This document shows positions 301 through 26,736 of a stretch of DNA of 26,736 nucleotides, in pieces. Position 1 is the first letter of the stretch. Each line of letters begins with the position of its first letter. The stretch is taken from positions 1 through 26,736 of the forward strand of contig VKHL01000246.1 of NCBI GenBank assembly GCA_015146655.1. The letters are read 5' to 3'. The notes beneath the pieces were generated by a model, which was not told the origin of the DNA, ran no database searches, and worked only from the letters and a program-made list of their open reading frames with translations. This DNA comes from Ochromonas danica (Eukaryota > Sar > Chrysophyceae > Chromulinales > Chromulinaceae). Both the position numbers and the translations under genes were made by a program.

Positions 301-321
301 CTTTGCTACTAGACTAGATCA

Positions 322-4017: not shown

Positions 4018-4050
4018 ATGAGTGCTGCTAACATTATCTTACAGACCAAG
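4018..4050 (+). CDS. Possible first coding exon of an unidentified plus-strand gene
   Basis: ATG at 4018 opens a short frame (MSAANIILQTK) ending at a textbook donor, AAG|GTAAGAG. Without splicing the frame closes at 4083. A possible second exon begins after CGAG at about 4131 and reads EKIGIGSLCFKTG before closing. I do not recognise the protein. The support is the strong donor and the head-to-head position with the globin gene. Confidence 0.25.
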
Positions 4051-4455
4051 GTAAGAGAAAAGATAACTCTTGCACTAAGCTGACTATCAGCAAGTATTCA
4101 CTACTTGTGTGACTTGAATCGAGGAGAAGATTGGCATCGGAAGTCTCTGTTTCAAGACGGGTATGGCAGCAATTATTGTAGTTGTCTAATCGCCATCAAG
4201 CAAGACTTTAAACTTACCATTATGAACTTCTGTCATTTATTTTGGCAAGTGCTTTGAGTTCGTGAAGAAAGGGATGAAAAAAGACAGACTTTGTTCAATT
4301 TAAATTTAGAAGGTCGTAAGCATATTTTGCGCGTGCGCATTTGTTGACACAAGCAATGTGGTTTTTTGGTTGACAGTAAGTCAAGACCTTCTCTTGTGTC
4401 TAGTACAGCAATGCAGACTATCTGCTTCGCACACAAGTCGAAGACATGATTTAAT

Positions 4456-5440: not shown

Positions 5441-5955
5441 ACTTGATTGATATGATAATAAAATCAATTCCTTTGAAATTTAATAAATCCAATGAATCTA
5501 GGTTGCATATCAACTAATAGAACAATATTATAAAAAGAAATAGAACTTGATCACTGTGATTTCAAAAGGAATTGGCTTTTCAAAATGCTCATTTTGAGTA
5601 ATGTTTTCAGGATGAGTGGGATAAAACACCAGTTATTCCTCTCAAGGAGTTTAGATGTTTGGCTTCTTCTCTTGTTTTCATTAATTCTCCTTTATTTGGT
5701 TGGTAAAATCAATAGTGTCTTACCTTCAGCCAAAGATATCAATAATGTGGACAGGTGATTCGGAAATCCGAGAGATAACACCCTAGACCAATTAATGTTT
5801 GAACATAACTTCTAGTCCTAAAGACAGTTCTCGTAACACTCTCCTATCGCCGCGGCCATATGGAGACCGCACCATTCGAAGTGTTGGAGTGGCATTACCT
5901 GCTTACTGTGTGTTGCGCAACTCTTAATGTATTATATACCCCACACACCATAGAT
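5441..5955. other. Intergenic region without a supported gene
   Basis: AT-rich sequence downstream of the OPR-like gene's stop codon. The only structure noticed is a short imperfect inverted match, aattcctttgaaat near 5464 with atttcaaaaggaatt near 5559. No coding frame, RNA gene or mobile-element end could be supported. Confidence 0.5.
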
Positions 5956-7719
5956 CTACTGGTGTACCATTGGATGAGCAGGAAAGAATTGCCTTGCCAC
6001 TTTCTTATGCTTCTTTAAACCTTGCTCCAAGCCTAAACGAACACCCTCCGATAATGCATCCCACTCAACTAACATACCGCCGAAACCATGCAACACCATC
6101 GATAAACCTTGACCTGCAAGATCTTTTGCTGCAACCTCTAAAGCAGCTTCTAAACTACTGCGTGCTGTGTTTGACAATGAACTCCATACACATGACATAC
6201 CACCTAACCCATGAAACACCATCGCTATGTTTTGAGCAGAAAGTTCCTCTGCTCGAGAGGCAAATGCTCCCTCTAAAATACTACGAGAAGCCTCTGGTAA
6301 AGTACTCCATCTACAAGACATACCACCTAACCCATGAAACATCATCGCTAAACCTTGAGCATTCAGATCTTTTGCTCGAGAGGCAAATGCTCCCTCTAAA
6401 CTGCTACGAGTAGCCTCTGATAACGTACTCCATCAACAAGACATACCACCTAACCCATGAAACATCATCGCTAAACCTTGAGCAGAAAGGTCCTTTGCTC
6501 GAGATGCACTAGCTCCTTCTAAACTCTCACGAGTGGCCTCTGATAGAGTACACCAGTCACATGACATGTTACCTAATCCATGAAATACCATCGCTATTTC
6601 TTGAGCAGAAAGGTCCTTTGCTCGAGATACACAAGCTCCCTCTAAACTGCTACGAGAAGCCTCTGATAATCTACTCCATCTACAAGACATACCACCTAAC
6701 CCATGAAACATCATCGCTAAACCTTGAGCAGAAAGGTCCTCTGCTCGAGAGGATATAGCTCCCTCTACACTCTCACGAGTGGCATCTGGTAATGTACTCC
6801 ATCTACAAGACATACCACCTAACCCATGAAATATCATCGCTATCTGTTGAGAAGAAAGGTCCTTTGCTCGAGATGCAATAGTTCCCTCTAAACTCTCACG
6901 ATCAGCCTCTGATAAAGTACTCCATCTACAAGACATACCACCTAACCCATGAAATACCATCGCTAAACCTTGAGCAGAAAGGTCCTTTGCTCGATATTCA
7001 ATAGTTCCTTCTAAACTCTTACGAGCAGTCTCTGATAATCTACTCCATTCAAATGACATACCACCTAACCCATGAAACACCATCCCTAAACCTTGAGCTG
7101 TTAGGATACGTAACCCCTGCTTACCAATCGCATTCGATGAGTCACGGTCACTGCTGCCCGTCGCCTCCACTGTTTTGCGCACCAGTTCATCCACTATCTG
7201 GTGTTCCGACTCTTCCAGCACATTCGTCGATACACCCAATTGTCCCAATGAATATATAACCATTGCCAATGTTTGTGGATCAATAGTTCCTTCATCTGAT
7301 CGGAGCTTCTCCAATAAAATAATTCTTGTTTCTGGGGTGATAATTGCAGCAGCCAAACCCAACTTCGGCAGAGCGAACAAAATGTTCGAAATGCTAGTGC
7401 AGTCTAACTCATTGGCTACTCTCTGAATCTCCTTTGACAACGACATCTCCAACCCGGGAGGAAAATCGACACTTTGAATTTTCGCAAGGCGAAGACCAGT
7501 CAATCCCAGGCCTACTTCCTTCCCTGACAAACCCTCTGCCGCACACAGCTTCTTCAATGTTAGTGAGATCAACGCCTTATGCCTCGAATCACGACCACAT
7601 AAGCCTAGGCGACTTAATGACCAGATCCAAGTCCCAATTTTGCTCGAGGGCAACTGCTCTGCCTTCACTTCCAGCCAAGGAAGCCATTCGTTCAGTATGG
7701 CCACATTTCCTTTCGACAT
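5956..7719 (-). CDS. OPR-like helical-repeat protein with one in-frame TGA
   Basis: From ATG 7717-7719 the frame is open to a TGA at 6433-6435, then continues in the same frame to TAG at 5956-5958; read through, it would be 587 residues. The first ~210 residues hold diverged helical repeats (FALPKLGLA, TLAMVIYSLGQLG). After them come nine units of 41 residues with the core LSAQGLAMVFHGLGGMSCRW, each followed by STLSEATRESLEG and AKD. The pattern L...L....GL..M...W..L resembles octotricopeptide (OPR) and related RNA-binding helical repeats of organelle gene-expression factors; RNA binding in plastid or mitochondrion is inferred. The TGA stands where sibling repeats have AGA (MSC-R-W). It could be a nonsense mutation, a sequencing error or a read-through site. 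A TAG six bases above the first in-frame TTG (7735-7737), preceded by an AG acceptor, means an upstream exon with a targeting peptide cannot be excluded. Confidence 0.7.
5985..7110 (-). repeat. Nine tandem 123-bp coding repeats
   Basis: The DNA word acataccacctaacccatga recurs with 123-bp spacing through the C-terminal half of the OPR-like gene. The middle units are nearly identical; the ninth unit (SMVLHGFGGMLVEWDAL) is the most diverged. The pattern of similar inner and divergent outer units fits unequal crossing-over or gene conversion. Sequence and assembly errors are also more likely in such an array. Confidence 0.85.
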
Positions 7720-8053
7720 ATATGACAAATCTTTCAAGTTCTACTCCTTACTTGCTCGTTTGAATAATTACAGATCATCTCATGGTGAATTTTCTTCATT
7801 AACCTCGTCATGCTGCTATGGTTATCGTCCTTCCACAGGCTTCGGACTTCGTCTCAAGCACACCTTTGTTGGAGATAGAGGTGCGCATAAGGACAGCAAG
7901 TTGTCGAAACCAGAATTAACGTTTGGTAGAAATGGAAAAGTTGACGAAAGGCTTGTAAATGTATCTGCAGAGGACATGGTCCAGCGTTTGCAAGAATTGA
8001 AGTCAAAAGACGGTAGTTCGACGAAGGATTTAGAGGCGATAGTGAAATTGTAG
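7697..8053 (+). CDS. Small plus-strand open frame overlapping the OPR-like gene start
   Basis: An ATG at 7697 opens 118 residues ending in TAG at 8051-8053. The last 70 residues look coding: KHTFVGDRGAHKDSKL, VNVSAEDMVQRLQELKSKDG and TKDLEAIVKL, with a probable C-terminal helix. Two good acceptors (TTACAG at about 7772 and TTCCACAG at about 7839) suggest the real gene may be the last exon of a spliced transcript. On the other strand a 5' exon of the OPR-like gene would compete for the same bases. No family recognised. Confidence 0.3.
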   Translation: MATFPFDIYDKSFKFYSLLARLNNYRSSHGEFSSLTSSCCYGYRPSTGFGLRLKHTFVGDRGAHKDSKLSKPELTFGRNGKVDERLVNVSAEDMVQRLQELKSKDGSSTKDLEAIVKL

Positions 8054-8343
8054 AACAATCTTCATTTTTCCAGAGCACGGATCGCAATTAATTATTGCAG
8101 AGTAGGTTCCTAGACTTCAATTCTTATCATCACACGAGAGATTTGATGACCTCCTAAGACCTCTGACCTCTTCCGCCTTGGTCATATTAGGACCTTGGCG
8201 TTTGTTTCAAGGCAGTATTTGAACAAATTGTCGTGAACAATCCGCTGAATCGTGAGGGATAACTCGTTTATTGGGGGAGCAAGGTGTTTATTCGTTGTAC
8301 ATTTACAATCCAGAACATGTTTTGCTACATGTTAACGCTTCTT

Positions 8344-8640
8344 TTAGTTGTGTACAACTACACTACAAAAAATCAAGTAATTTAACTGATCTAAGTCTTC
8401 CATCGATACGTTGCGTAACGATTTGAATCGATTTTCAATCGAGGCAAATGGTTGCTCAACGCGAGCTCAGACTTTGCAAAGGCTCTTAGGCACTTCTTTT
8501 GACTTCCGTGACCTTCCCAGTGTTGTTATGCGCTGACTGGTAAAGTAGTCATAGGAGTGGAAGTAGTCTAGCAGCAGTGATTGCTGAGACTCTGTAGTGT
8601 CACTGTATGTTAGGAGGAGGATGCTTCCTTCATTAGTCCA
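8344..8640 (-). pseudogene. C-terminal remnant of a Harbinger-like (DDE_Tnp_4) transposase
   Basis: The minus frame ends RNVSMEDLDQLNYLIFC and SVVVHN before TAA (8344-8346). It is preceded by ARVEQPFASIENRFKSLR. This matches the end of PIF/Harbinger and IS5-like DDE transposases, where R-x-E-x-x-F-x-x-x-K/E-N-R-F carries the third catalytic acidic residue and the chain closes with a LHN/VHN motif. One in-frame TGA (8467-8469) sits just before ARVEQ, where an Arg codon is common. The upstream part (LLLDYFHSYDYF) is open to 8640 but not diagnostic. The first two catalytic Asp regions and the terminal repeats were not found, so this is a dead 3' fragment. Confidence 0.5.
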
Positions 8641-8701
8641 TCAGATAGACTGGACCAGACTAGACTAGAGTAGACTAGACCAGCTAGTTCTCAATACCAT
8701 G

Positions 8702-8750
<49 letters not shown>
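8702..8750. repeat. (TCA)n microsatellite
   Basis: About 16 uninterrupted TCA units, followed by imperfect TAT-CAT units. It lies between the ankyrin gene's stop codon and the transposase remnant. Confidence 0.95.
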
Positions 8751-8857
8751 TACTATCATCAATATCATTATTATTATCTCTTGGCTATCATAGCTTGGTT
8801 TCTTCTTCTTCCTTCATCATGTCTTATCAATGCTTGTAGCCATCAACCTCTTCTTCT

Positions 8858-11800
8858 CTATATTGCTCCCTTGGCCCTCAGAAGCGCTTTAATGTCTTCT
8901 GTCTTAGCAACCGTCAGAGCAGTTTTCCCATTCTACCCAACAACAACCACAAGATACAAGACAACATAAGACAGAGAGTATGACAAGGTTAGAGTCAATA
9001 ACAACAACACACTCTGTCAACATAACTACCACTGCCACTAGACCTACAACATCTACTAACACACCACACATCATGACTCTAATAGACTATACCAGACTGT
9101 ACTATATTAGACTACTACCATATAAGCTGATATTAGACATGGACACACTTACCTTATCAGTCTTGTTCACATCTACTCGCCCATCAAGTAATAAGATCAG
9201 AACCACTTCTATATGACCCTTACGGCATGCAGCATGCAAGGGCGTCCGTCCATGCTAACAAACAAGCACAGTCACATATATTAGATATAACAATAGTAAT
9301 GGCATTGTAATCTATCTATATCAGTATATGCAAACAGTAGTACATCCTTCACCTACTTTATATCTACTACACCTACACTAACCTATTACATATCAACTAT
9401 CATAACATACTAACTATTAGATATATACTCAAACTAACATATACTATACATTAACATATTCATCTGCTTTCTACCTACACTAACACTAACTTATAACATA
9501 CTGCATATCATTATTGTGACATACTATACTATACAGTACAAGACTACTACCATGCAAGTTGATTGAAAAAAAGAATAATAAAATAAAATAAGAGAGAGAA
9601 AGAGAAGAGAATGAATGAAGGTTCTATTGTTTTCCTTCAACTTCTCAAATGAGTATCTTCTCTCGAATAAATAAAATAAATTGTTGAATTAGAAACTCAA
9701 TACTTATAGAATAGTCACACTTACATTATCAGTCTTGTTCACATCCACCCGCCCATCAAGTAATAGGACTTTAACCACCTCTAATTGACCATAGTAGCAT
9801 GCATTACTCAAGGGCCAATATCCATGCTAGTCAAACACAGTCACATATATTATTAGCTATAACGATAAAGACATTGTAACCATGCTATATCTGATCATAC
9901 TATCATATGCTAATAATACTAACACCTTCATCTACTTTATACTAACACCTACACTAACCCATAACATATACACCATCATAACAGACTAACTATATCAACT
10001 CACATTAACAGATACTGCACATTATATTCATCTGCTTTCTAACTACCCTAACTTATAACATGCTACATATGATTATTGTGACATAATATAGTATACAGTA
10101 CAAGACTATCACCATGTAAGGTGGAAGAAAGGATGATAGCTACACTTACCTTATTAGCCTTGTTTACATCTACCCGTCCATCGAGTAATAAGATCAGAAC
10201 CACTTCCACATGACCCTTCAAGCACGCAGTATGCAAGGGCGTATATCCATCCTACTCAAACATAGTCAAATATTAGCTATAACAATAAAGACATTGTTTT
10301 CTATCTATATCAGTTTATGCAAACAGTAGTACCTTCTTCACCTACTTTATATAAACACCTATAACATATACACCATCATAACAGACTAACTACTCCATTG
10401 GTAACTATTCCGCTATATATTGGTATTAGATATATACTCATAGTAACATATACTACACAATAACATATTCATCTGCTTTCTACCTACACTAACACTAACT
10501 TATAACATGCTACATATCATAACTGTGACATACTATACTATACAGTACAAGACTACTATCATGTAAGATAGAAGAAAGAATAGCAACACGTACCACACAA
10601 GCCTTGTTAACCTCCACCCGTCCATCAAGTAATAAGAACCGAACAACTCCAACACGACCATTCCGGCACGCAGTATGCAAGGGCGTCCAACCATCCTGGT
10701 CAAACACAGTCACATAACGATAAAGACATTGTATGCTCATACTAACATATGCTAATAATACTAACACCTTCATCTACTTTATACTAACACCTACACTAAC
10801 CTAATACATACAAACCATCATAACAGACTAACTATATCAACTCACATTAACAGATACTGCACATTATATTCATCTGCTTTCTAACTACCCTAACGCTAAC
10901 TTACAACATGCTACATATGATTATTGTGACATAATATAGTATACAGTACAAGACTACCACCATGAAAGGTGGAAAAAAGGATGATAGCTACACTTACATT
11001 ATCAGCCTTGTTCACATCTACTTGCCAATTGATTAATAGGACTTTACCCACCTCAACATAACCCTTACAGCATGCAGCATACAAGGGCGTCCGTCCAGTC
11101 TAGTCAAAAACAGTCACAAATATCAGATATAAGAATAACATTGACATTGTAATCTTTCTATATCAGTATATGCAAACAGTAGTACATCCTTTACCTACTT
11201 TACACTAACACCTACACTAACCTATTACATATCAACTATCATCACAGACTAACTATTAGATATCCACTCATATTAACATATACTATAGTACTATACATTA
11301 ACATATTCATCTGCTTTCTACCTACACTAATACTAACTTATAACATACTACATATCATAACTGTGGCATACTATACTATACACTACAAGACTACTACAGT
11401 GTAAGATAGAAGAAAGGATAGCCACACTTACATTATCAGTCTTGTTAACCTCCACCCGCCCATCAAGTAATAAGACTTTAACTAACACAACATGACCCTT
11501 CCAGCATGCAATACTCAAGGGCGTATATCCATTCTAGTCAAATACAGTCACAAACATTAGTATCAGCATTCTATAGGAATTATCTATCGATATGTATATA
11601 TATTAATATATACAACATATAGATTTACGCTTAAAAGCAGACTACTCAGACATCATCACTAGCAGTTGCTGAGATGATTAAATGCTCACCTCACTATCCA
11701 CAACACAGACAGCGTTGACATCTATTGCTGGATGAAGTAACAGCAATCTCGACATCTCCATATCACACCTTACAGCTGCCATATGCAGCGCTGTCATACC

Positions 11801-12630
11801 CTACAGACCATTATTAGACATTCACCACATCATACCATCCCTATTAGAATGCACAGCAACATAGTTTAGCTATCCACAGACATCCCTCCCGCCTGCATCA
11901 TAACAAAAACTACAATAGCAATGGCAAGCAGCATCCTAGCCAACAGGCTTAGTTAGCTAGAGTACACTGTTCTCCATGGCACCCCCTTCTACACACTATA
12001 TCGACCAGTAGGCTATAATCAGTACTTTACCTTGATTTTAGTATGACCTAGAGTCATTGTGAAGTGATGGTGGATTACAGATACAGGGATTCTATGAATT
12101 GCATTGTAAGTCTCCAGTGTTTTCAATGCTGTCAAATCTCCAGACTCGATCATTTTCTGCCAATTAGCATGGCAATTCAGAAGTAGAATAGCGATCTGAC
12201 CGTCTTTTTGTTGAGCGAGTAATTTGTCATTCAGAGCCAGAGCTTCTTCCAGCTTTCTCTCTGCCTCAACTCGTCTGGCTTCTTCTGTCTCTCTTGCTTT
12301 GATGCTCTCTTCTAGTTCAGACACTACCTTCTCATTTACTGCCTGACATTCTTCCAGCTTTCTCTCTGCCTCAACTCGTCTGGCTTCTTCTTTCTCTCTT
12401 GCTTTGATGCTCTCTTCTAGTTCAGACACCACCCGACATTCTTCCAGTTTTCTCTCTAAATCAACTTCTCTTCCTTTTTGTACCTTGTGAGGGATATCAT
12501 CCAGAAGACCATAGAACATCTCCTCTACCTCAACACGGCCTCTCTTTTCCAGTATGCTTCTCACTTCTTCAGCCTTTCTCTTTTCTTCTTCTACATCTGG
12601 CTTCTCTAGGCTCGACTGCATCTTTTTCAT
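8858..12630 (-). CDS. Coiled-coil / ankyrin-repeat protein, nine exons
   Basis: Exons in order of transcription: 12630-12031, 11800-11690, 11533-11432, 11099-10998, 10695-10594, 10251-10150, 9826-9725, 9254-9153 and 8932-8858. All introns are phase 0 with GT donors (mostly GTAAGTGT) and AG acceptors, 156-470 bases long. The product is 465 residues. Residues 1-200 are a charged coiled coil with a 35-residue (five-heptad) internal duplication. Then come a 37-residue ankyrin unit ([15 protein letters not shown]), six 34-residue units, one per exon (such as [18 protein letters not shown] followed by [16 protein letters not shown]), and a capping unit [20 protein letters not shown] with stop TAG. 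Ankyrin units bind proteins; the partner is unknown. The start is the first ATG in an otherwise open frame, so a further 5' exon is possible. A damaged paralogue lies at the left edge. Confidence 0.8.
8933..12030 (-). repeat. Related introns of the ankyrin gene (exon-intron tandem duplication)
   Basis: The introns between the 102-bp exons share words in the same order: acatattagatataac near the acceptor, actttatactaacacctacac, tattcatctgctttctacc, ttataacatactacat and tactatactatacagtacaag near the donor. So each duplication unit was exon plus intron, about 400-570 bp. The same words occur in the broken copy at 1-1250. The region 11640-12060 is similarly matched to 1250-1660, showing that the whole locus was duplicated. 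Confidence 0.75.
12249..12430 (-). repeat. 105-bp direct duplication in the coiled-coil exon
   Basis: The word ccagctttctctctgcctca starts at 12249 and 12354, and similarity runs for about 75 bases in each unit. The period of 105 bp is 35 residues, exactly five heptads, so the duplication ([11 protein letters not shown], then [14 protein letters not shown]) keeps the coiled-coil register. Confidence 0.85.
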
Positions 12631-13189
12631 CACCTTCTTATAGCAAATAGGAAAATATGATACGATAAGAAATAATTTTAGGATGAGGTAGATAGGATAA
12701 ATTAATTTTCTGAACACAGCTTATTGCTCTTCTATGGCGACAATCAGTAGCAGTTGTGTTTTAGTTGAGGGAGATACCAGTAGTGTTTTTAGTTCCAGTG
12801 GTGGGAGAAACCGTCGCCACACGCCACAGAACTTAGGCCCGCCTTCTCTCGTTGCAAAAAGTTTTGCAAAAATGCAAAATACAAAGTGAAGTTAACGTTC
12901 CAAGCCGTGAAGTTAACCCTACAATTTGCAAATTGCAATACAACAAAATCTTCAAACTTTTACAAAACCTTTACAAAGAGTAATTTCTTTTCGCATCGAA
13001 TGAATTCAGAACTCCACCCCGCTACAAAGTCAGTCTACCGGTTGTAGTAGTGATTTTACTAGAGAGTGGAATGCCCCGGGGAACACTATAGAGCGAGCTT
13101 TACAGCTGGATGATGACTAACAGCTGCTATCTTCAAAAGAGAAGGAAAGAAAAATCATTTCCAAGCTGACCACCATGCTAGATTCTACA

Positions 13190-13788
13190 GGGAAGAAGCC
13201 TCTGCTGCCACTTTATTACACCCGGCACCCCTGGAGTGTTTACTCAGAAGCGCAAAAGACGGTAAGGAAGATTATCTTTTTATTATTTCGCGGTTTAACA
13301 GAGGTTGTATCTTGACTTGCAGAGAACTAATACCGTCTGGGCAAATCTAAGTCAAGATGTGAAAGAGAGTATTGTGAAGGATCTGCCTATGGATGTACCT
13401 CCATAGAACACCACGACTGCCGATGACATCGCTTGTACACTTGTATTTGGATCCGCGCCAGGAGCAGCAATGGATATCTGTTTTCACGATGATGACGCGC
13501 ATTGAGCTAGACCATAAAGAGGCCCGTAATAACCAGTGGGACGCCATAGCCATAGCGTTCAACAGTTATACGGACTTCAGGTTCGATAACTGTACATGTT
13601 TGTATAACGAGGATGGCACAATCGAAGGTCCGTTACCCAACCACATCGTTGCTTACGGGTTCTGCAAGGACATTAACCCAACGGCTGGCCTAAGCAAGCC
13701 ACGCCCCGTTCAAAGCAGAGTGCAACAACTGCAGCCAGTCAACAAGCTTGTCAGGGTGGAAGTCACGCATACTCAGATCCATTTTTGA
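13190..13788 (+). pseudogene. Plus-strand gene of the transposon, damaged, unidentified
   Basis: A coding-looking stretch begins near the ATG at about 13173 (MLDSTGKKPLLPLYYTRHPW), is split by a good 61-base intron (13262-13322, GTAAGG to TTGCAG), continues TVWANLSQDVKESIVKDL, then meets TAG and further stops. A different frame takes over from about 13490 and reads NNQWDAIAIAFNSYTDF and then NHIVAYGFCKDINPT, ending in TGA at 13786-13788. Changes of frame indicate two or three lesions. Earlier sequence from about 13030 (REWNAPGNTIERALQLDDD) may belong to it. Harbinger elements usually carry a Myb/SANT DNA-binding partner; the W...A..FN pattern is compatible but not proof. Confidence 0.45.
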
Positions 13789-13834
13789 TTCTTTTTAATT
13801 TCTATTTAATATTAAGCATAAATATTAACAGTTT

Positions 13835-14627
13835 TCAAGGTCTTCTCCAGCCTTTTTGTTTGAGGAAGTAGGCGATCTTCAGTAGCTTTAAACTGCAGTC
13901 ATGGTTGTCCTCATCAAGCTCTCCACGTAGGCCGTTGCATTCGTTCAGAAAAACCTGAGCACTGTCACCATCAGCATGATCTTCAGGCATTGTGGTAGGC
14001 AAAAAAACCTGATGCACATGTTGTGCAATTCTGCACACACTCTGATTCACCTCTAAACGACTGAGGGCTTTGATTAAGGCTGCATTGGGCTCTCTGCCTA
14101 GGGCTGGGGAGGAGGAGTGTAGTAGGGGGTTGCTGGGGATTTGGGAGGAGCAGTGGTGGGTGGACGTGCCGTGCGAGGTTGAGGTACTTGCAGACGTGGA
14201 GGAGGAGAGGAGTGTTGTCTTGAGTGGTTGTAGGGGCGGTTGAATCTGTCGCGACAATTGGATCATCCCTTCTTCCTGGGCTACGGATGTTGTGACGACT
14301 TGGGAGAAAGCTGGGGCAGGAGAGGATGGGTCTTCTTCTTCTTCTACTTGGGCCGTAGAATAGGTTGTTGGGGTGGCTGTTGGGTCTTCTGTTGTGGTTG
14401 CTGGTCCCACTCTTTCCTGTTGAGGGTTGTCTAGGACTAAGTTGTTGACGATCTGGAGGACTATGGGGGCTGGGTCTCTTCGAGTTGCCTTTGTTTCGAT
14501 GCCTTGGAGTACTACTTCTTCCGCTAAACTACTCTCTCACCCGATCAGGTTCTTCTTTAGCCTCCTCCTCAATGATCTGGTCGATAATATTGTCAATAAC
14601 ATCATCAACACACGGAGGAATGTCCAT
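13835..14627 (-). pseudogene. Minus-strand gene of the transposon, Pro/Ser/Thr-rich, one frameshift
   Basis: ATG at 14625-14627 opens MDIPPCVDDVIDNIIDQII and an acidic helix up to a stop near 14529. One base off, an open frame continues SSLAEEVVLQGIETKATR, a Thr/Pro/Ser-rich linker of about 110 residues, and a conserved-looking end: NAALIKALSRLEVNQSVCR, ECNGLRGELDEDNHDCSLK and AYFLKQKGWRRP. The shift sits in a GAGAGAG run near 14535. About 260 residues in all. The stop is 47 bp from the end of the plus-strand gene, so the two genes face each other. Family not recognised; DNA binding or complex formation would be a guess. Confidence 0.4.
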
Positions 14628-14913
14628 TTTCTCACAAATTTCTATTGATGAATCCGTCTTGGAAAGATTTTGTATTGGTAATTGGCAAATTGCAACGAGA
14701 GATGGATGGATGGACGGAAAACGCGTGGAAATGCGATTTCTTGCAATTTGTGACGTTAACTTCACTTTGTATTTTGCATTTTTGCAGTTTTGTAGAGCAT
14801 TTTCCAACGAGAGAAGGCGGGCCTTACCAACTCCAATTCAAACATGATAAAGTTCACAAAATCGAACAGTACTTGCTCATTTCTGCACCAAAGTTGCCTC
14901 AAAGCATATCAAA

Positions 14914-15423
14914 ATGGTCCTAAGCAAGCGTGCTATTGATTACAGCCATAAAACTCTGAGGGCTGAGGAAAAGGAGCAAATTGGAAGAATGGCAAGTACT
15001 GGTCGAGGAAAGGCAAAGAAGGTGTCCAAGAAGTACAAGATACCGCTATCAGCCGCGAAGAAATACTCCCTATATGTTAAGAAGGGTATCAAGCTTTACG
15101 GGAAAGGCGGAAAGCCGCCCTTGCTCGAAGAGGAAGATAAAACCAAGTTGCGAAAGTGGTTTGGAAGAAAAAGGGGGGTGTTTACAGAGGAAGAATTTCA
15201 CGACGAAGTAGTCAAACTTGCTCGAGCTCGTCATATTTCACGTGGTAGAAAGCTGGAAAAGTTTGCGGTGCCTTACTATCAAGAAGCTGGAGAAGGAGTT
15301 ACACATAAAAACTGGTCAGGCCGAGGTCACTACCAGGAACGGTTTTTTGGAGTGTGGCGACGGTTTCTCCCACCACTGGGGTTCGTTCGAACGCAGATGA
15401 AAAAGCAAAAGCCGACTTTTTAA
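14914..15423 (+). pseudogene. Helix-turn-helix N-terminal part of a pogo/mariner-like transposase
   Basis: ATG 14914 starts 169 residues. Residues ~15-60 (LRAEEKEQIGRMASTGRGKA, then SKKYKIPLSAAKKY) look like a helix-turn-helix DNA-binding domain, followed by a second small basic domain (LLEEEDKTKLRKWFGRKRG, then FTEEEFHDEVVKLA). Such paired domains open pogo/Tc1-mariner-type transposases. Around 15240 a +1 frame becomes better: SLRCLTIKKLEKELHIKTG and then AEVTTRNGFLECGD, which is the kind of linker that precedes the DDE domain. So one frameshift is likely. No catalytic D-D-E/D region follows. It begins 90 bp from the right end of the neighbouring transposon but is a separate unit. Confidence 0.5.
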
Positions 15424-15825
15424 AATCGGAAAATGACAGATTTGAAAGCACGCATGGTGAGTTGATGGAGATCGTTATTGGAAGACGAAACTGGGGTGTG
15501 TGAAGAGATTGAAGAAGAGGATGCGGTTGTAGCTAAAGAGAAACTCAAAGTTGATGAGGAAGAGACGTACAGCTCGAGAGAAGAAGTGGCTGCTAATGCT
15601 GGTGGAACTGGTAGTGTTGGTGCAGCTGCTGATAAAGATACCGATGACGTGGACGATTGTAGTTACCAGAGTAGTTCAGTCGCAATTGAGAAACCAAGAA
15701 TGTCCGCTTTCGCTGACGTCGATATTGCTGCTGTTAACGCCAATGGCGTTTTGGCCTTCGAAAACTCCGGTCTGTTGGAGCACATATGTTCACAATGCAA
15801 GAAAGAATGCTATCAAAAGGCCTAA
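15400..15825 (+). pseudogene. Acidic C-terminal tail of the HTH transposase-like gene
   Basis: A frame reading ADEKAKADFLKSENDRFE and GELMEIVIGRRNWGV runs to about 15500. An overlapping frame then gives an acidic region (EDETGVCEEIEEEDAVVAKE) and a chain to TAA at 15823-15825, ending HICSQCKKECYQKA with three Cys that could bind metal. Order and strand make it the tail of the HTH gene with the catalytic core lost, or a separate domesticated gene. Several frame changes argue against function. Confidence 0.35.
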
Positions 15826-16748
15826 TGTGTAAATAACATCTTAAACAACGAGGAGAGTATGTAATGTCTATTGTTTTTCTTTGCTGTTTACACTGCTGGC
15901 TAATATGATTGTTTAGTGAGTGAGTCTATATTTGACTTGGAGTATTCGGTATTAGGAGATGGCTGTTGTAGAATTGTTTTGTTTATTGGTGTTGAGTGTT
16001 GTTAATTGGTTTACCTGATGATCAAATGTGGTGGAATAGCAGTTTGTTGATTCCTCTGGTGAGATTCTGGATAGTCTACGTTATTGAAATTGCTTTGTGA
16101 TCTGATATAGCGATGCTTTCTCATCAAATTGTTGACTGCATTGACACATGGTTAGACAAATTGATGTTCCATATTGCCTAAATCAGGACGTTCCTCTTTG
16201 TTGCTCATTGTTGATATCACTCATACTAGCCTGGGCTCTATCTGCTAGATGAACATTGTCTGTCTTGATGATTTGATTTGATTTGATTTGATTGTTACTA
16301 AAAAATACTTCACACAAGAGGTTACAAAGCTTGAAATCAAACAACACACGCTTCTTCCACTTCGATTTCATCTCAAAACAGAAGTCACCTTTCGAAGAAG
16401 AAGCCTGTGAATCAGAGGATTACTTAATAAGAACAGCATGATTAAAAGAGCATAGCGAATGACGCGCTACTCAAGTAGCAGAAATAGAACAAGACAGAAG
16501 CACCAAAGGGTACTAAACAATTCAACAATAGAGTTACAAGACAGAAAACAAAGAAAAAATCTATTGTATGACATTATGGCATTGTATGATATAATGGTAG
16601 TAATGTCAACGACGATCATACTGCTTTAAACTACACCTCAAGTCCTTTTCCTTCACAGTATCAATAAATCAACTCTTTGGAACAGAGAAACAGAAAAAGA
16701 GCAGAATTGCAATGCAGTGCTGAACTAATTGCAATGCTAAACAAAAAA
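15826..16748. other. Intergenic region; GATTT tandem at 16268-16292
   Basis: AT-rich and without a supported gene on either strand. Near 16268-16292 the pentamer GATTT is repeated about five times. Its right part is the 3' flank of the RCC1-like gene. No transposon ends were found. Confidence 0.5.
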
Positions 16749-19700
16749 TCACATCAAATCATCCCACTTCATCGAAGACGCACTTGACACTGACAGTGAA
16801 CTCACTGAACTGCCATCAACAAACACACCATTATTTCCCCACCCCACCAACAACCCATCCGACCTCACCGCCATAAACGACAGCTTGCCACCATGCAACT
16901 CCACCACACCTCCTCCCAGCAACCACGACACGGAAGACATGTCTCCTCCATACCCACCATGACCCCAAGATAACACACTGCCATCCTGCCTCAACGCTGC
17001 AAACGCTCCTTGAGAAGACACCACCTTCTGCACTCCACTCGACGCCCACAACCTCTCCTCCTCAGACATCTCGCCTCCATACCCACTGTGGTTTGTATTG
17101 TTGGGGTCGATCTAGCTATGGAGGGAACTGCAGTTCTGTTTCTTCTGCTTTCAAGAGCACGTCTGGAGAAGGAGTGGAAGTCGGGGAGGTGAGATTGGTG
17201 AGCTCGGATCGAGCATTTGCTGCTTGGCGGAAAGGAGGTGAGGTGAGGGTGTGGGGAGACCTACAGATGTCAACACTGACACCGACCCGCGATTGCACTC
17301 GATATACACCACTTCCTCCTCATACAACGCGGTCGACACTGACTCGGGAATTACTCCACCCACATCCGACTTACCCCACGCCACGATCTGACCTCGACCT
17401 TCCGCCTTCACCCCCACAAACACTTGACTACCCGATACCAACCACGACAACCGAGGAAGATCCGCTGGAGCACACCCACCATAGTAACAATTCCCCCAAC
17501 TCACCACATACCCATTGCCTCGCAACGCCGCGAACGCTGCCTCCGACGCCACGATCATCTTCACATCATGAAGGGAATCACTCACATTCAACCTCACATG
17601 TTTCCCTCCAACACCCTTCAGCGATCCATCCTGCCACGAAGAGACGCCTCCTCCGGCCCACGCATTGCCCCAGCTACACACCTTCCCATCTCTTCTCCAC
17701 GCCGCATAAGCGCCGCTAGACGCAGCTGCGATCCCCAACACTCTGCTGGACACATAAGGTGCACAAGACGATGACACCTCGCCACCATGGCTTGCTGCTC
17801 CGAACGACACCACTCCTCCTGTCTTGTTCACACCAGCGAACGACACATCCGTGCTCACCAACCACACCAAACCCCACCAGCTCACCCCACCCAACACACT
17901 CACATTCACACTCTCAACCCCACACGACACATGCCTCTCCCACCCTGAGATCGACACCTCCGATCCCCACGCCGCGAAACGACCATCCCGCAACAAACCC
18001 ACATACCCATTCTTGCTCGTGATCACCGCCGTCAAGTTCAACTCAGCTTCCAACTCAGACATATTCGATGAAGTCTCACACAGCTTCGACCTCACGTTGA
18101 ACACTGTGAGCGAACCATCCTGCTTCTGCTTCTGCTTCACCTTCTCATCCCCTTCCCACCACCACACCGTGCCAGAAACATTCCAAGCCACCATCCCACT
18201 CAAGCTTCTTGGACGGTAACTCGGAGAAGATCGAAGCATCTCTCTCAAGCTGCTCACATCCACGGTGGGGAAAGAGGAAGGCTGTGTAGAGGGCTGACTA
18301 GAAGGATGGACCGAGGGTTGGCTGGAAGGCTGTGAAGAAGGTATAGCAGAGGGCTGAGAAGAAGGTCGAGAGGATGGCTGTGTAGAGGGTTGACTAGAAG
18401 GATGGATGGAGGGTTGGCTGGAAGGTTGTGAAGAAGGTATAGCAGAGGGTTGAGAAGAAGGTTCGGAGGAAGGTTGCATACTGGGCTGACTCGACGGTGA
18501 CGATCTGGGGGTCGAAGTGGGCTGACCCGATGGTTGGCAAGATGGGAGGGAGGAAGGTTGGCAACTGGGCTGACTTGAAGGTTGGCTACTTGGCTCATTA
18601 GTCGGCCGTGTAGAAGGTTTGGCCGATGGTTGTCCCGATGGACGGCAACTGGGTTGGCCAGTAGGCCCAATAGAAGGCTGAGCAGAAGGTTGAGCTGAGG
18701 GTTGGGAAGATGGTTGAGAGGTCGGTTGGGAAGATGGTAGAGATGTTGGTTGGCAGCTTGGTTGACCTGATGGCTCGGAACTTGGTTGCACTGTAGGCTG
18801 AGATGATGGCTCGGAACTTGGTTGCACTGTAGGCTGAGATGATGGTTGACTGCTAGGATTACACGTGGGCTCAGCCGTGGGTTGTCTCGTTGGTTGGGAA
18901 GATGGTAGAGAGGTCGGTTGGGAAGATGGTAGAGATGTTGGTTGGCAGCTTGGTTGACCTGTTGGTTGAGAGCTCGGTTGCACTGTAGGCTGAGAGGATG
19001 GCTGACTGCTAGGATTACATGTGGGCTCAGCCGTGGGTTGTCTCGTTGGTTGGGAAGAAGGTTGAGAGGTCGGTTGGGAAGATGGTTGAGATGTTGGTTG
19101 GCAGCTTGGTTGACATGTTGGCACACAGCTCGGTTGCACTGTAGGCTGAGATGATGGCTGACTGCTAGGATTACACGTGGGCTTAGCCGTGGGTTGTCTC
19201 GTTGGTTGGGAAGATGGTACAGAGGTCGGTTGGGAAGATGGTTGAGATGTTGGTTGGCAGCTTGGTTGTACTGTAGGCTGAGATGATGGTTGTGTGCTTG
19301 GTTGAGAAGTGGGTTGAGAGGTTGGCTTAGGAGATGGTTTGGGACTAGGACGCGGTGTTGGAGATTTGGTAGGTAATGGGGAAGGAGCTATGGTTGGCAT
19401 CATTGTTGGAGACGCCGTATCGACGGCCAAGTAGATTGTAACCTGTGCAGAACAAGATTCATCACCGCCGCACCCTTCCCATATATACATGGTAGTACAA
19501 GTTGACAGAGGAGGCTTATAGGTATTACCGCACCCACCTCCGCATGTTGCGTACTCAGAGCCACTGCTGTATGTTAAGCGCAAATACCCACTATAGATAA
19601 TTTTCATGGTAAATTTGAATCCCGGACAAAGAGTAAAGGTACATATGTAGGATTTAGCATTGGTCGCCCAATTGGTAAGGCCAGTGGAGTAAGATGGACA

Positions 19701-20399
19701 CGCAGTCCACTGGTTAACTTTCAATTCGATTGAAGAAGTGCGGGAAGTGGGCTGACTTGTTGGTTGAGAGCTGGGACGGCAAGATGGGCTGCTTGGGTGA
19801 GAGGTCGGCTGTGCAGATGGCTGGGTTGGCTGGGTTGTCGGCTGACATGATGGTTGGGTGGAAGGTTGGGAAGATGGCTGAGAAGAAGGTTGGGTGGAAG
19901 GACGTGAAGATGGTCTAGCTGAGGGAGAGGATGGCTCATATGTGGGCTGGGCGGTAGGTTGAGAGGAGGGTCGAGAGGAGGGTGGCGAACTGGCCGCTGA
20001 AGTCGGCTGAGGAGAGGGGAATGCTGTGGGTAAAGCCGATGGCTGCATGGAAGGTTGAGAAGAAGGATTGCCACTAGGCGTACTCGAGGGTTGAGAGGAA
20101 AGACAGCCAGATGGTTCATTCGAGGGTTGCGAGGATGGTTGACTCGTTGGTTGGCCGGAAGGTTGAGAAGAAGGCTCTTGGCTTGGTTGTGCGGAGGGTT
20201 GGGCCGTGGGGATGTCGGTAGGCTGAGTCGAAGGCTGTGCTGAAGGAAGACTGGATGGTTCATTGGTTGATTGCGAAGAAGAAGAAGAGGCAGGAGAGGT
20301 GACAGCTGATAAGGTGGCTGAAGAAGTGCCCAGAGTCCCCCATGTCAAAGCCAAGAGAAGTAGTAGAACTGTTAACACTCCTCCTCCCATTATCCTCAT
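16749..20399 (-). CDS. Secreted PSSQPT-repeat / RCC1-like protein with an internal inversion
   Basis: ATG 20397-20399 gives a signal peptide (VLTVLLLLLALTWGTLG). Domains: PSSQPT array 1 (about residues 45-222); a Cys-rich domain of about 105 residues (TACPSYSTGLTNW, FTLCPGFKF, CGGGCG); PSSQPT array 2 (about 343-710); then RCC1-like units with the core AFAALRGNGYVVSWGNCYYGG shortened or varied six to eight times, with several N-glycosylation sites. As it stands, the frame ends at 17151 (1,082 residues) after about 35 non-RCC1 residues. The missing units are found on the opposite strand at 17088-17260 and then again on this strand from 17087 to 16749, ending in a stop. Probable role: cell-wall or surface protein; PSSQPT arrays act as extended linkers in algal extracellular proteins, and RCC1-like propellers bind proteins or ligands. 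Partners are unknown. Confidence 0.75.
17088..17260 (+). other. 173-bp inverted segment inside the RCC1-like gene
   Basis: On the plus strand this segment reads GLYCWGRSSYGGN and then SSDRAFAAWRKGGEVRVWGD, clear RCC1-like units, whereas the gene around it is on the minus strand. Breakpoints placed at 17087/17088 and 17260/17261 leave both sides in register: one base before, 173 bases inside (58 codons together), and the downstream codon AGT at 17087. Placed in gene orientation the junctions read TSVGGLYCWG and VWGDSGYGGE, and the frame would be open for 1,216 residues. Confidence 0.85.
18270..19390 (-). repeat. PSSQPT-type coding array, long block
   Basis: Hexapeptide-like units SQPSSQPT, SLPSSQPT, CQPTSQPS and similar run almost unbroken for about 370 residues. 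Larger blocks also recur, for example AEPTCNPSSQPSSQPTVQPS three times, so the array grew at two scales. A second block of the same type lies at about 19735-20265. Long opposite-strand and off-frame open frames here are by-products of the 6- and 12-base periodicity. Confidence 0.9.
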
Positions 20400-21168
20400 G
20401 ATGCTTGAGGTGTACGAGAGATATAGTATTTTACTTGATATGCACCGAGAAATGACAAAGAATTTCTTCTCTTATTTATTTTCTCTATTCTATTTCTCTT
20501 TTTTTCTTGCTTTTAGTCAACAGACAGAACTTCTTGATTTATATTTATAAACGTTATCCATGTTCTTCTCCGTGCACAGCTTTATCGGGCGGTTCGTTCC
20601 ACACAGAAATCCAGAATTTCGCGCGGCTGAGTTAAGTTAACAAACGCGGGTTTTTGGCAAAAAAACGCCCCTTCCGCCTTGTTGAATGGAAGAGGTCTGA
20701 GCGAATTTTCCATGGGATTCAGTAGAAGATCACCTTTAATTGGCAATCAATGGTTCCAATTAAATAGTTAGAAAGTGATCTGTGGCTACTAGGCTAACAG
20801 GGAAGGCTAACTTAACACAACCCGGTTCAGGGCTCCTCTCTCTTCTACTCACCCCTCTTATTAGTGTCAAAGACGGTAATAAGACAATGAATGAAAAGAG
20901 TAAGGAAGTCATGAATAGGGAAGAGGACACTGCTGCTGAGTGCGGTTTTCACCACTCATTGCGCGGGAAATCCCCACTGTGCAAAAATTTCACCGCTGTG
21001 CAATTATTTCACCGCTGTGCAATTATTTCACCGCTGACCGCGCTGGGGGCAGAGACAGTGGGAAATGGCGACGGCGAGGAGAGTCGAAAACACAATCAGT
21101 CACCAACCGAGAGAAACAATGAGAGGGTGAAGATCTTCATTCGTGGACCTCGAAAGCCCTCAAATCCT
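20400..21168. repeat. Gene-poor spacer with a 19-bp triple repeat (20976-21032)
   Basis: The unit gctgtgcaattatttcacc occurs at 20976-20994 (diverged), 20995-21013 and 21014-21032. Just to its left is gcgcgggaaa, a match to the E2F-type consensus TTTSSCGC. This stretch lies downstream of the copia element's coding part and could contain its 3' LTR, but with the other LTR outside the window that cannot be shown. The 20400-20530 part is the upstream flank of the RCC1-like gene. No gene was supported. Confidence 0.5.
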
Positions 21169-23451
21169 TCAGACAACTTGTGATATTATGGATTTGGAGT
21201 CTAAATTATTTGCCTGCTCCTCCACAAGACCTTCATTTGAAGAGATATGTTCTTCGTCCTTGGAAGACATGATGTTGAGGAGGACTTGTCGGAAAGCACG
21301 ATGACGAGGGGCATTGCTTAGCTTGGTCAGTAGGTCGGCTGGTAGGATATCTCCAGGCATATATTGGATCGCCAGTTCCTGGGTCGAGAGTTTCTCTCGA
21401 GTGTACCAGAGCCGGATGTCGATATAGCGTGCGCCTGTGGAGGCACCTTGCCCTTGGACATATTGGATCATGGCCTGATTATCACAGTAGAGAGTCATAG
21501 CAGGAGAGGGTTTAGGTGATTGGTAATTAGGTTGTAATAATCTAAGGAATGACTGAACATAATAAAGTTCCTTGATTGCACTCGTGGCCGCATCTAACTC
21601 GGCTTCGAATGAACTCGTACGGATGCCAATAGTGGCATGAGTACTCGCCATGATGGCTCCAGATTGCGGATGCAGCTTCACTAGTACTCCCGTAATACTC
21701 CTGCGTTTGGGACCGGTAGCCAGGGATGCATCGGAATAAGCTGTCAGGTTGATGGTGGAGCAATCACTTCCTCCCAGGGTGAGTGGGGTAGTGATGGACC
21801 CTGAGAGATAGGAAATTACGTAATTCGCCTGCTGTAGGTGGTGTACTCGAGGTTGCTGTGTAAACCATGATAGATATGCAGTAGAAAAACATATATCGAA
21901 ACGAATTCCGCTGATCCATAATAAAGAACCTACGATGGTCAAATATTGTTTGCGCTGTTTAATATTAAGATAAACACTTTTTTCTTCCTTCATCTCATCG
22001 AATTGTTCATCGTATACTTTATAACTAGAAGGCGATATTGGAACCTTGGGGTCTTTTGTAATACTGGGATCATCAGTACTACCTAAGAACTTGATCAAGT
22101 CTTGTATACGCTTCTCCATGGTTAGTTTGATAGTACGATTAACTCGGTCACGTACTATAGTCATACCTAATACCCAATCTGGTTCAGTTGTTTTGGCGAG
22201 TTGACGAAACGGAGTTATAAAATGCTCTTCGATTAAACTGCGAGATGCACCAGTACACACGAAATCGTCAACATATACGAAAACAATAAGAGATTCAGAT
22301 GAAGTGATCCTCTTGGTGAATATGCACTGACTCATCGCAATTGCACTGAAACCCATGGTATGCAGTCGCTGCTTGACGTCATCATTATAATCCTTCGGTG
22401 AAGATTTCAATCCATATAAGGCACCAATGACTTGAAAGTATTCATCTCCTTTAGTATGCTTCGTGAATACAGGCTTCGATCCCTTGTACGACGCTGATAG
22501 AAATGCACGTACTTCATCGATGTGACAGATATCCCAATCATATATCGCTGCTAGATGGAGGATTATGAGGAACTCTTCCCGTCGGGGAGAAGGTGAAAAC
22601 ACCGAGTCTTCAGGATGATGATGCTTGCCGTTTGCAACAAGCCGAACTTTCCAAACATCTTGACCTGCCTTGACCTTGGGCTCATAAACTGGGAACATAA
22701 CTACTAAGTCTGCACCGTCGCGTATGCCGTCTTGGGCGACTTTCTTGTCAACCTTGAGTAATGTCTTTGCTGCCATGATGGTTTCCCATTCCGCCCGTGC
22801 TGCTGCACCCCAGATTGGATCAAGTAGAGCAGTTTGGAAGGATTTCGGGACATTCTCAGTGACTGCCCGATAGCACTCAATAGGTTGAGAGGTACCAATC
22901 TCGCACTTGAGTAGGTCATTAGAGGGGTCAAATATAATAATAGAAGCTTCGTTTACTGAAAAATAACACGACTGGTTGGTGTGATTACTCCAGTCCGTAA
23001 ATGTGAAATTTCCGTCAGATGCAGATGTGGTGTACATAGCAGTGTCCACTTGAGGTGGTCCATCTGGTAATATCCTCCGATTGGGTCGCCTGGATGAAAA
23101 CAGGATGTTCTGAATTCTGTCTTCATAGGATTGACGTTTGGCCTTCATCGGTTTTTCCTTTCCTTTAGGGTCATTGTTGGGAGCCTGTGGTACAGGGATT
23201 GTCTTCTTCTGAGTTGTAAGAGCAGGAGAATCCATGACAGTGGTAGGATCATCAGATAATGTCTCATCAGTGGTTGGTAAGACATTCGTTGATTGCGGAA
23301 GATCAGTGACTACTGCTGTTGTGTCTTCTTCTTCTTCCGGTGGTGGTGTTGTCGTCGTGTTGATCACAATGGGTTCAATATCATCTGAAGTAATAATCAC
23401 CGTGTTATTGTTGTTGGGTGCGTTATCATCTTTGTCAGATAACACGATCAA
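21169..23451 (-). pseudogene. Reverse transcriptase and RNase H region of the copia element
   Basis: About 760 residues. A variable acidic start is followed by a copia reverse transcriptase with the VYVDDF catalytic box, GALYGLKSSP, and an RNase H part with SDASLATGPKRRSITG, SSFEAELDA and LYCDNQAMI, all usual copia landmarks. Listed as a part of the fossil element. Confidence 0.9.
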
Positions 23452-25266
23452 CGGCTGCTGCTGATGAATCCCCCGTTGAATAAAGGGATAAGGGTTAATT
23501 CAGAGACACTCTTGAAGTGAGTTGTGGCGATGATCTGGATCCTGTTGCCTGGCGTCAGGACAGCAAACCTGCACGCACCTTTGATGTGCAGGTCTGGACC
23601 AACGTAGAGTCCCCGTTGATAGAAGGAGTGGTTGGCCACCTGATGCGCAGTGGGTGGACGCTGGACTTGAACTATTGCAAAAATAGGGAGTATTCGAATA
23701 TCGAGTAGGTCAGGACGCTTGCCTGTAAATATCTCAAATCTTGTTTTTGTTGCATCGGACTTCGAAATTGCGAGATTGTGAACAATAAGTGCCCAATGAA
23801 ACAGTTCACCCCATAGCATATAGATCTGTCTGTGGGTGAAACCCAAGTATTGAAAATTGGGGTTGTGCAGTATATAATGAATCGCCTTCGAGGTGGCTTC
23901 CTTCACTACTCGTACTGCACGTTCCACATCCGGTGTTCCATTTTGATGATAATACGGTTCCGAAATCCTCGTGTGGATTCCAGCCTCCGTGAGATAGGAC
24001 TGAGCTTCGGGTTCCAAGACTCGGAACATGCGTCTAGGTAGTACCGCCGAATCTGCACTCAGTAGTTGGATGCGGTGTCCATGGAGTTCATAGTGTGCTC
24101 GGAGAGGTTTGAGAACAAGGAGTGTGTTCTGAGTTGACGGGACAAGGAGACCCCATAAATAACCAGAGAATTTGTCGACAGATAGGAAACCGTATTTTGC
24201 CCCACCTAAAGTAGGAATTTTCTTTCTTCGAGCATGATCAGTAGTCAATTCTGGCGTTGTTGCGGCGTCCAACTCATTGTAATCTGGTTCGAAAAAATCA
24301 CACTGGACCCATTCTCCGACACTTGTGGTGGTAGGACGCGGGCCAAAATAGCCTTTGGATCCACCATATGGGTTAGGATAGGCAAGTTGAAATGCATCTG
24401 GGGTTTGTCCCCAGCGATTGGTAAATGAGTTGAGGGCTTTAATAGTGATACTTGGGTGAAGTCCAGTAACTGGATGACTTGTCCCTGCTTCGCCACGTAC
24501 GTACGCTCGAAGTGTATCCATTGAAAGACCCGAGATAAGGTATGATAAAATGCGTTCATCCGTGTTCGTCACGTTCACGCGAGTATTAAAAAACGTAGTA
24601 GCAACACCGTGCGCATGGTGTTGTTGTACTCGTGCGTCTGCCAGCAGTTGGTCTGCAGTGGTGACGGCTTGTGTAGGTGGGCATTCCCAATGATCGTCAT
24701 CGATGACCTCATAGGTCTTGTCGTGTACGTGGAGACTTTTGAGTCTGGGGAAGCGAGATATGTAATGTCGTAAATCAAGTATTTCTGTGGTGTTCAGTTT
24801 CAATACTGCACCATCAGTTTCAAATAAGATAATAGCTCCTTCTGCGGCATATTCTTGAGCGCATAGGAGACATAGGTCTTTGGGCATATTATGCACATAA
24901 CATTCGACCTTTTGATCTTCGTTAATACCAGCCTGCGTAATACCGCTCGTGCGTGGTGTTGTTGAATCCAACTATTTGTTGTTGGTAAAGAGGATTGTTT
25001 TGCGGGTAGACATACTTCAGTCTCCTTGGACATCCTGATACACTGCGGCTGCATGCCGTATCGAGTTTTATTCGGACTCGTTGTTGAATGGCTTCGCTGC
25101 TGGGCTTGGTCGATGGTTCCCTGCGTTGATTACTGGGTATGATCGCTATTGCCAGTGCTTGCTCTTGATGAAATGTTGATAGTAGTTGTGGTTGCTCGTC
25201 ATCGGTTTCACCCGCATTGCTGTCAATAATATGAGTTGAGAGTGAGTAACCTCCGTGCATTGCCAT
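23448..25266 (-). pseudogene. Protease and integrase region of the copia element
   Basis: An aspartic protease motif (KLDTACSRSVSG) is followed by a pre-integrase part and an integrase core with recognisable acidic positions (QCDFFEPDY, LLSADSAV, GTPDVERAVRVV). The region is not in one frame. Listed as a part of the fossil element. Confidence 0.8.
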
Positions 25267-25344
25267 ATTGTAGTATGTAGTAGGATCGGCTTCTTCTTCT
25301 TCTTCAAATGTCTCACCTGTGGGAATAATGGGAGGCGTTTCTAG

Positions 25345-25744
25345 TCAATAAGGGTCTGGATTAAATGAAACTGCGTACGCTCGGTTCTGTTGGGTTGAAG
25401 GTGGAGGCGGTGATTCCGATGTTGTAAGGGCTCGTCGGGATGCGACAGTCAAGTCTTGGCGGCAGAAATCTTGCGTATGGCCATACAGACCGCACTTCGA
25501 GCAATGACTATCTGAACACCGGGGTTGATGATGCATCGTATTTTGGCGATTTTGACCACCATTTTTGATACATAAAGGACACAAACGTAAAGTGGCAGTA
25601 TAGGGGAATATTTGACCTTGGCGATTTACATAATGATAGACGCCGGCCATTATTTGCTTCGGGAACAGAGTACCCGTAGGAGGTAAAGGCTGGGAGGCAC
25701 TGCGTTTCTTGCTTGGGGAATTCGAATAGGGTAATTCTGCTGTG

Positions 25745-25808
<64 letters not shown>

Positions 25809-26676
25809 GAGTCGTCGATGGTGCGATTGCTGAATATGCTGTCGTCTGTTGCTGACTCTTGTAAGAAGTTGAATTTCGCGGATAGTACGCTCTGCGATTC
25901 GATTCAGTAGAAGTTGTACCACCACCCCCAAATCCAGGAGTGGTAGAAGAAGTCAACTTTACGTTAGGTTTGGAATCGAAACTCTTGGCATCTGAGTAAC
26001 GTCTTAGGTAATCCTTAAGAACTTGAAACATGGAAGGCATGAGTTCATGGCCATCGCGTGGATACTCACTCATAGTCGTCAAGACATGACTTAGAGCGCG
26101 TTCTTGTAAAGAAGCCTGATCTGTAGGAAACGAGTTCAGATGAATGAGGGTAAAAAACAGGTCCATTGTCATATATCGCCAATAACCCATACGAGTCCAC
26201 AGCGAATATAGCTGCTCAATTTCTGTTGACCCATCCAAAATGTCTTGAGTCGTCAGTCGTAGGCGTAAACTTTTCTGAAAGGCGTTGAAAAAATCGACTA
26301 CCGTGGGTTGGTAGAATTTTTCCTGTAGGAGAGCATACACCCCCGACAAATTACCGTCTTGCAGGGGATTCTCGGTCACTGTTGTGCCATCATCCAGACG
26401 TCGAACTTGCGCGGAGAGGTAAATCATCAATTGTGGATAAGGAGTAATTTGTTGTCGAATTGCACCACAAATATGCGTAATGCAAAGTTGAAGATGTTGA
26501 ATGAACGCGATCAAGGCAGCATGCTCATCTTGCATTTTCTTAAATTGAGCGGTAGAAAGATGATACTCTTTGTTCAGACGAAGTGCCTCGTGATACTCCT
26601 CGAGACGACTGGTAAATTCTTCATCAATTTCGGCGTCAATTTGATCTTTCAAGAGAAGATGTAGTATTGCTGGCAA
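25345..26676 (-). pseudogene. Gag region of the copia element
   Basis: About 440 residues. A helical capsid-like part is followed by a Thr run coded by the GTA/TAG microsatellite and a CCHC zinc knuckle (CSKCGLYGHTQDFC) near the end, which binds RNA in this family. Listed as a part of the fossil element. Confidence 0.8.
25744..25809. repeat. (GTA)n microsatellite inside gag
   Basis: About 22 GTA units without interruption; on the minus strand it codes for a Thr run. Length is likely variable between copies of the element. Confidence 0.95.
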
Positions 26677-26736
26677 TACTTATTTAATTCATGCTATTTT
26701 CTCTGTCTTTTCCCTCTGTCAATGATTGGAATTCCA

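Follow-up and report, generated by a model that had tools for sequence, protein, structure and literature searches.

A 173-bp segment of a PT-repeat/RCC1-like gene of Ochromonas danica stands in the reverse orientation, and the same reversed segment recurs in other members of the gene family on different gene backbones. The comparison of these copies makes it probable that one micro-inversion was followed by at least two transfers through ectopic gene conversion, and that the reversed form spreads within the family as a loss-of-function allele. That a reversed allele exists is near certain, and its presence on several backbones is likely, judging from the assembled copies. The stretch of DNA analysed here, called the window, comprises the 26,736 nucleotides of one contig (C246) of a genome assembly of 31.2 Mb in 337 contigs; gene copies are named after their contigs.

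A reversed segment within an RCC1-like gene

The gene in the window is made up of the following features.

17088-17260, plus strand: segment of 173 bp that contains two RCC1-like motifs and runs opposite to the minus-strand gene; forward in six of nine close paralogs and reversed in three
17151-20399, minus strand: present open frame, with a hydrophobic N-terminus, PT-rich repeats (Pfam PF04886) and a shortened RCC1-like part
17154-17260, minus strand: about 35 unrelated C-terminal residues encoded by the inverted segment
16749-17087, minus strand: orphaned 3' part of the gene with the last RCC1-like repeats; its 339 bp are 100% identical to those of C164, C15a and C230

A DNA comparison within the genome of the organism itself identified window positions 17088-17260 as the reverse complement of a segment that lies in coding orientation in close paralogs. 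Against C230 and C167, 173 bp align with 173 bp at 98.3% identity, with three substitutions, and no base has been gained or lost at either junction. On the plus strand, the segment translates to the RCC1-like repeat residues of the forward paralogs. The first-pass annotation had claimed, from the window alone, that an RCC1-like piece of this size is on the wrong strand and that both junctions and the codon phase would fit if it were turned round; both claims are confirmed by the match to the forward paralogs C230 and C167. The tail from 17087 to 16749 stays in frame to the original stop, the interval from 20399 to 16749 measures 3651 bases, which is divisible by three, and the corresponding frame of C230 runs uninterrupted across the segment to the same stop.

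As it stands, the frame of the window gene runs on the minus strand from 20399 to a stop at 17151 (1082 codons), about 35 codons beyond the left junction. By eye, its hydrophobic N-terminus looks like a signal peptide. The search of Pfam at E 0.01 gave no match for the tail of about 35 residues, and in the orphaned part a match to RCC1_2 covers positions 16749-17069 of the minus strand.

Orientation of the segment in the gene family

Copies were sought by a DNA search of the organism's own genome with a 351-bp query over the region, and the best candidates were scored, so that more copies may exist. Among these best-scored candidates, nine copies contain the segment together with both flanks, six of them in coding orientation and three reversed.

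Reversed copies: C246 (the window), C164:3503-3853 and C15:119073-119423 (C15a)
Forward copies: C230, C167, two on C30 (C30a and C30b), C15b (at 125 kb) and C15c (at 284 kb)
Fragments that do not reach the segment: C230:1-666, C15:113061-113267 and C72:5903-6073

The frame is open through the segment to the same stop in all six forward copies, while all three reversed copies encounter a stop at the same place inside it. The forward segment measures 173 bp in C230 and C167, and the four other forward copies have 12 more bases. A protein search added divergent paralogs on C59 (51%) and C20 (38%), whose alignments are colinear and cross the segment in coding orientation. Since six of the nine close copies and both divergent paralogs read through in this orientation, the forward state is, on this evidence, ancestral and the reversed state derived.

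In the upstream RCC1-like part, 34 of the 36 pairs of copies have dN/dS values of 0.16-0.58, which suggests that the family is under constraint, although these pairwise values say nothing on the reversed copies after the event. The two outliers are the pair of the window copy and C230 (0, with three synonymous changes only) and the pair C30a/C30b (1.01).

A single reversed segment on different backbones

The reversed segment is 100% identical in C246, C164 and C15a, and three substitutions are common to these copies and absent from all six forward ones. Because the three reversed copies share both these private substitutions and an identical stretch of 339 bp between the segment and the stop, a single origin of the reversed state is indicated.

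The sequences upstream of the junction give a different grouping. In the two 200-bp bins that lie 600-1000 bp upstream, the reversed copies are only 83.5-93.6% alike (window/C164, 93.6 and 88.1%; window/C15a, 89.5 and 90.0%; C164/C15a, 88.5 and 83.5%). From -200 to -1000, the window copy is 99.5-100% identical to the forward C230, and C15a is 98.5-100% identical to the forward C15b. In a tree of the upstream columns -1010 to -200, each reversed copy is found on a separate branch, which forces three changes of state; the groups C246+C230 and C15a+C15b have supports of 100/99 and 98/95, respectively. The downstream tree, in which the three reversed copies are identical and no branch is starred, does not separate reversed from forward copies because the forward C230 has the same tail.

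The extent of the agreement is described by two further features.

16746-17390: tract without a difference among the reversed copies at any of the 31 ungapped polymorphic sites counted between -130 and +341, including those of the segment
15916-20644: block common to the window and the forward C230, with an identity of 99-100% downstream and around the RCC1-like part and of about 87-94% in the PT-rich and 5' part

Both in 200-bp bins and in runs of polymorphic sites, the paralogs are more alike within the tract than in its surroundings. The window copy and C164 agree over 34 sites, from -188 (position 17448) to +341, and the pairs window/C15a and C164/C15a over 31 sites each, from -130 to +341. 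With the segment included, the runs of the three reversed pairs have permutation p values of 0.0005-0.001 (2000 shuffles). In the flanks only, they comprise 27 sites for window/C164, 24 for window/C15a and 24 for C164/C15a, with p values of 0.0031, 0.0029 and 0.0014 (20000 shuffles). These flank-only values are supportive rather than decisive, given that there are 36 pairs in all and that some forward and mixed pairs also have significant runs (C246/C167, p 0.0005; C230/C167, p 0.006). Since such pairs are affected as well, conversion is a feature of the whole family rather than of the reversed copies in particular. Another sign of it comes from C30a and C30b, whose upstream RCC1-like parts, with 3 synonymous and 10 non-synonymous changes, and first 400 bp downstream are near-identical, whereas the two diverge beyond the stop; here, conversion would have been confined mostly to coding sequence. 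The argument for transfer of the reversed segment consequently rests on the conflict with the upstream tree and the shared private substitutions taken together.

If the donor was C164-like, the left edge of the tract in the window copy would fall between -191 and -188; in C15a it falls between -152 and -130. Differing edges are as expected for separate transfers. Directly beyond either edge of the block 15916-20644, no match between the window and C230 was found over 100 bp.

Breakpoints

The absence of a long inverted repeat in the flanks, on which the first-pass annotation had based its doubt about programmed switching, was borne out. Over 60 bp, 10 of 60 positions match across the two breakpoints, and in the outer 30-bp flanks, which the search covered, the longest inverted match is 7 bp:

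17265-17271, minus strand: left arm, GACATCT, 4 nt outside the left breakpoint
17065-17071, minus strand: right arm, AGATGTC, 16 nt outside the right breakpoint

When a 173-bp segment was placed at 1314 positions in this part of the gene, 21 of them gave an inverted match of 7 bp or longer. The breakpoint features are compatible with template switching or microhomology-mediated repair and give no support to site-specific recombination; programmed inversion of this kind was rejected on the same two counts.

Consequence for the protein and possible source of the segment

It had been claimed that the product loses its last four or so repeats and gains about 35 residues, and the comparison with C230 agrees. 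The reversed copies lose about 169 of the 515 residues of the C-terminal part of the forward C230, with the match ending at residue 346. The loss corresponds to four RCC1-like repeats, counted by eye from their WG-type motifs, two in the segment and two downstream. As a whole, the forward C230 part reaches 43.7 bits for PF13540 against a cut-off of 22, with no single stretch passing E 0.01 alone, and in the PDB it has weak matches to the RCC1-like domains of HERC2 (4.7e-06) and HERC1 (1e-04). A truncated RCC1 propeller is probably unable to fold as a closed ring. Since the upstream frames remain open in C246 and C15a, a short product from these two copies is possible.

The third reversed copy is different. 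In C164 the frame begins in the PT region after a stop and its first methionine comes 121 codons in; a search of C164:1-2262 with the window gene at relaxed settings gave no match, that is, the 5' part of the gene is absent there. C164 would therefore be incapable of making the secreted protein, unless another start or exon serves. Because of this missing 5' part, C164 suggests itself as a candidate for the copy in which the inversion may have arisen, or persisted, before it passed into C246 and C15a. Transfer in the opposite direction, from C246 to C164, is an alternative, and the pattern is explained just as parsimoniously by a return of C230 to the forward state through conversion as by a gain of the reversed one in the window copy.

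Taken together, the probable course of events would be as follows. One precise, in-place micro-inversion of 173 bp would have occurred in a single gene of a young family that encodes secreted PT-repeat/RCC1-like proteins, most likely through a replication template switch or microhomology-mediated repair. Ectopic gene conversion, a process that we infer from a pattern directly visible in the copies, would then have carried the reversed tract into two or more other members. In each recipient, the stop inside the reversed segment would exchange the lost residues for the unrelated tail, while the family keeps six intact members.

Alternative explanations

The first-pass annotation, which treated the window gene alone, had offered four readings: a young loss of function, a haplotype difference, an assembly error and a switchable segment. 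Of these, a young loss of function is the best fit, and the doubt cast on programmed switching was right, whereas the other two readings fare poorly. That three of nine paralogs carry the inversion, on backbones that differ, could not be seen from the window. A haplotype pair was rejected: neither window 1-8000 nor 8000-16700 has a second full, near-identical copy among the best candidates scored, and the forward copies are paralogs with different surroundings. If the gene block on C230 and C15 is set aside, the best matches to window 1-16700 are partial, for example those on C256 (95%), C262 (96%) and C40 (91%). An assembly error at a single site is contradicted by the fact that the same inversion, with its private substitutions, was assembled at three places with different upstream sequence. 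A broader artefact, in which one reversed copy or none is real and the assembler joined an identical tract to several backbones, we regard as unlikely. The common identical tract, of about 650 bp with the segment, would lend itself to such joining in a repeat-rich assembly, the fragment C230:1-666 is at a contig end, C164 is about 2-4 kb from a contig start, and a run of at least 8063 N on C15 (an assembly gap or a withheld stretch) adjoins the array. Mixing of forward paralogs, however, could not yield a reversed segment with clean junctions, so that at least one real molecule would be needed; moreover, single-base differences distinguish the three reversed copies from one another in the interval from -205 to -152 relative to the left junction, and C15a is located inside a contig of 304.6 kb, with a forward copy 6 kb away.

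The remaining readings accept the reversed copies as real. Recurrent in-place inversion at a hotspot, or a slow switch, acting at separate loci instead of transfer, would account for the two forward/reversed pairs on nearly identical backbones (window/C230 and C15a/C15b), and the 7-bp inverted repeat flanking the segment can be cited in its favor. We consider it very unlikely in view of the three private substitutions, present in every reversed copy and in none of the six forward ones, of the poor match between the breakpoint sequences, and of the tract of C15a, which is like those of the other reversed copies and unlike that of its sister C15b. Even less probable is the plain duplication of one reversed gene without conversion. 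The family is clearly expanding, with several copies on C15, C30 and C230, but the three branches of the upstream tree, two of them beside forward sisters, would require exact re-inversions under simple descent. Finally, we give almost no weight to the idea that the reversed segment became an intron, by which the protein would lose a short piece and keep its end. By eye, the reversed piece is pyrimidine-rich, starts with GT and is followed by AG, and 88 GT-AG pairs in the scanned stretch would preserve the frame; the pair at the exact junctions (175 bases), however, shifts the frame, and only one acceptor among the 88 pairs has at least 11 pyrimidines in the preceding 20 bases. Where a short stretch separates exon matches of actin-type and light-harvesting genes, the donor is GTRAG by eye in five of the six cases sampled, a pattern to which GTCTCC and GTAGGT do not conform. 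Rescue of the reversed copies by splicing is, then, unlikely.

Surroundings of the gene and other loci

Window 21169-26676, immediately upstream of the gene, contains minus-strand open frames of a Copia-type retroelement; an RVT_2 match is found in 21169-23451, and the neighboring frame 23448-24971 is without a Pfam match. No direct repeats of at least 60 bp were found in 20400-26736, and two LTRs were not seen in that stretch. Window 8500-12800 and 1-1660 match many places in the genome, mostly at 70-90% (C124, C262, C181, C187, C10 and others) and some of them in tandem, as in an abundant, diverged repeat family. On the minus strand, 5956-7737 encodes a protein with 41-residue repeats around HGLGGMSC.W, with related stretches on C63, C26, C53, C48 and C4; it had no Pfam match above the cut-off and four weak ones. 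Also on the minus strand, the open frame 3323-3937 matches the globin family (PF00042, E 1.1e-05), and window 2800-3882 has a 91% copy on C40. Elsewhere in the genome, C224:8673-16382 contains four light-harvesting-type genes with equal scores, one every 2407 bp, which represent a young tandem array or an assembly repeat. Light-harvesting proteins (PF00504) account for 47 matches in the genome, which marks the organism as photosynthetic.

Relation to known systems

Conversion from pseudogenes is known to move disabling alleles into intact genes, as in human CYP21A2 and SMN. The reversed copies resemble these cases in that a disabling tract lies on otherwise intact copies, with C164 being here a candidate donor only. 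Programmed invertible segments, in turn, serve as phase-variation switches. The presence of a short segment in both orientations in one genome recalls such switches; unlike them, it has no inverted repeat longer than 7 bp at its breakpoints, and its reversed state is linked to a single origin by the private substitutions. One may also imagine that the orientation of the segment is a state passed among members, with conversion between expressed backbones swapping the C-terminus between a full RCC1-like end and a short proline-rich tail. A free-living alga would in this way diversify a secreted or surface protein by a cassette-type process, for which 5'-truncated copies would serve as donors; we see little chance that this reading is correct.

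The spread of a disabling inversion, which we prefer, has partial parallels in the literature. The human/chimpanzee microinversions (PMC8755829) are exact reverse-complement copies 17-33 nt long; 28 of the 59 have inverted repeats of 4-7 nt, whose inner edges lie within -5 to +4 nt of the boundaries, two exceptions apart. The inversion in the window shares with that set the precise copying, may resemble it in having a short inverted repeat nearby, and differs from it in its 173 nt, its coding position and its 7-bp repeat 4 and 16 nt outside the edges. With the cases of ectopic gene conversion and concerted evolution of gene families that have been reviewed (PMC3924832), our copies have in common near-identical short tracts in paralogs with diverged flanks, and young copies both clustered and dispersed. 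What would have moved here, however, is not a point variant but an inversion that introduces a stop, and it is present in three paralogs of one genome. In the titles and abstract openings surveyed, neither the transfer of an inversion from one paralog to another through conversion nor this PT-repeat/RCC1-like protein family was described.

The inversion is an unusually clean tracer of gene conversion, as the same breakpoints and the same three substitutions are very unlikely to arise twice. The paired forward and reversed sisters make the length and direction of the tracts measurable with long reads. The presence of the inversion on three backbones suggests how a disabling change can move through a gene family rather than staying in the copy in which it originated.
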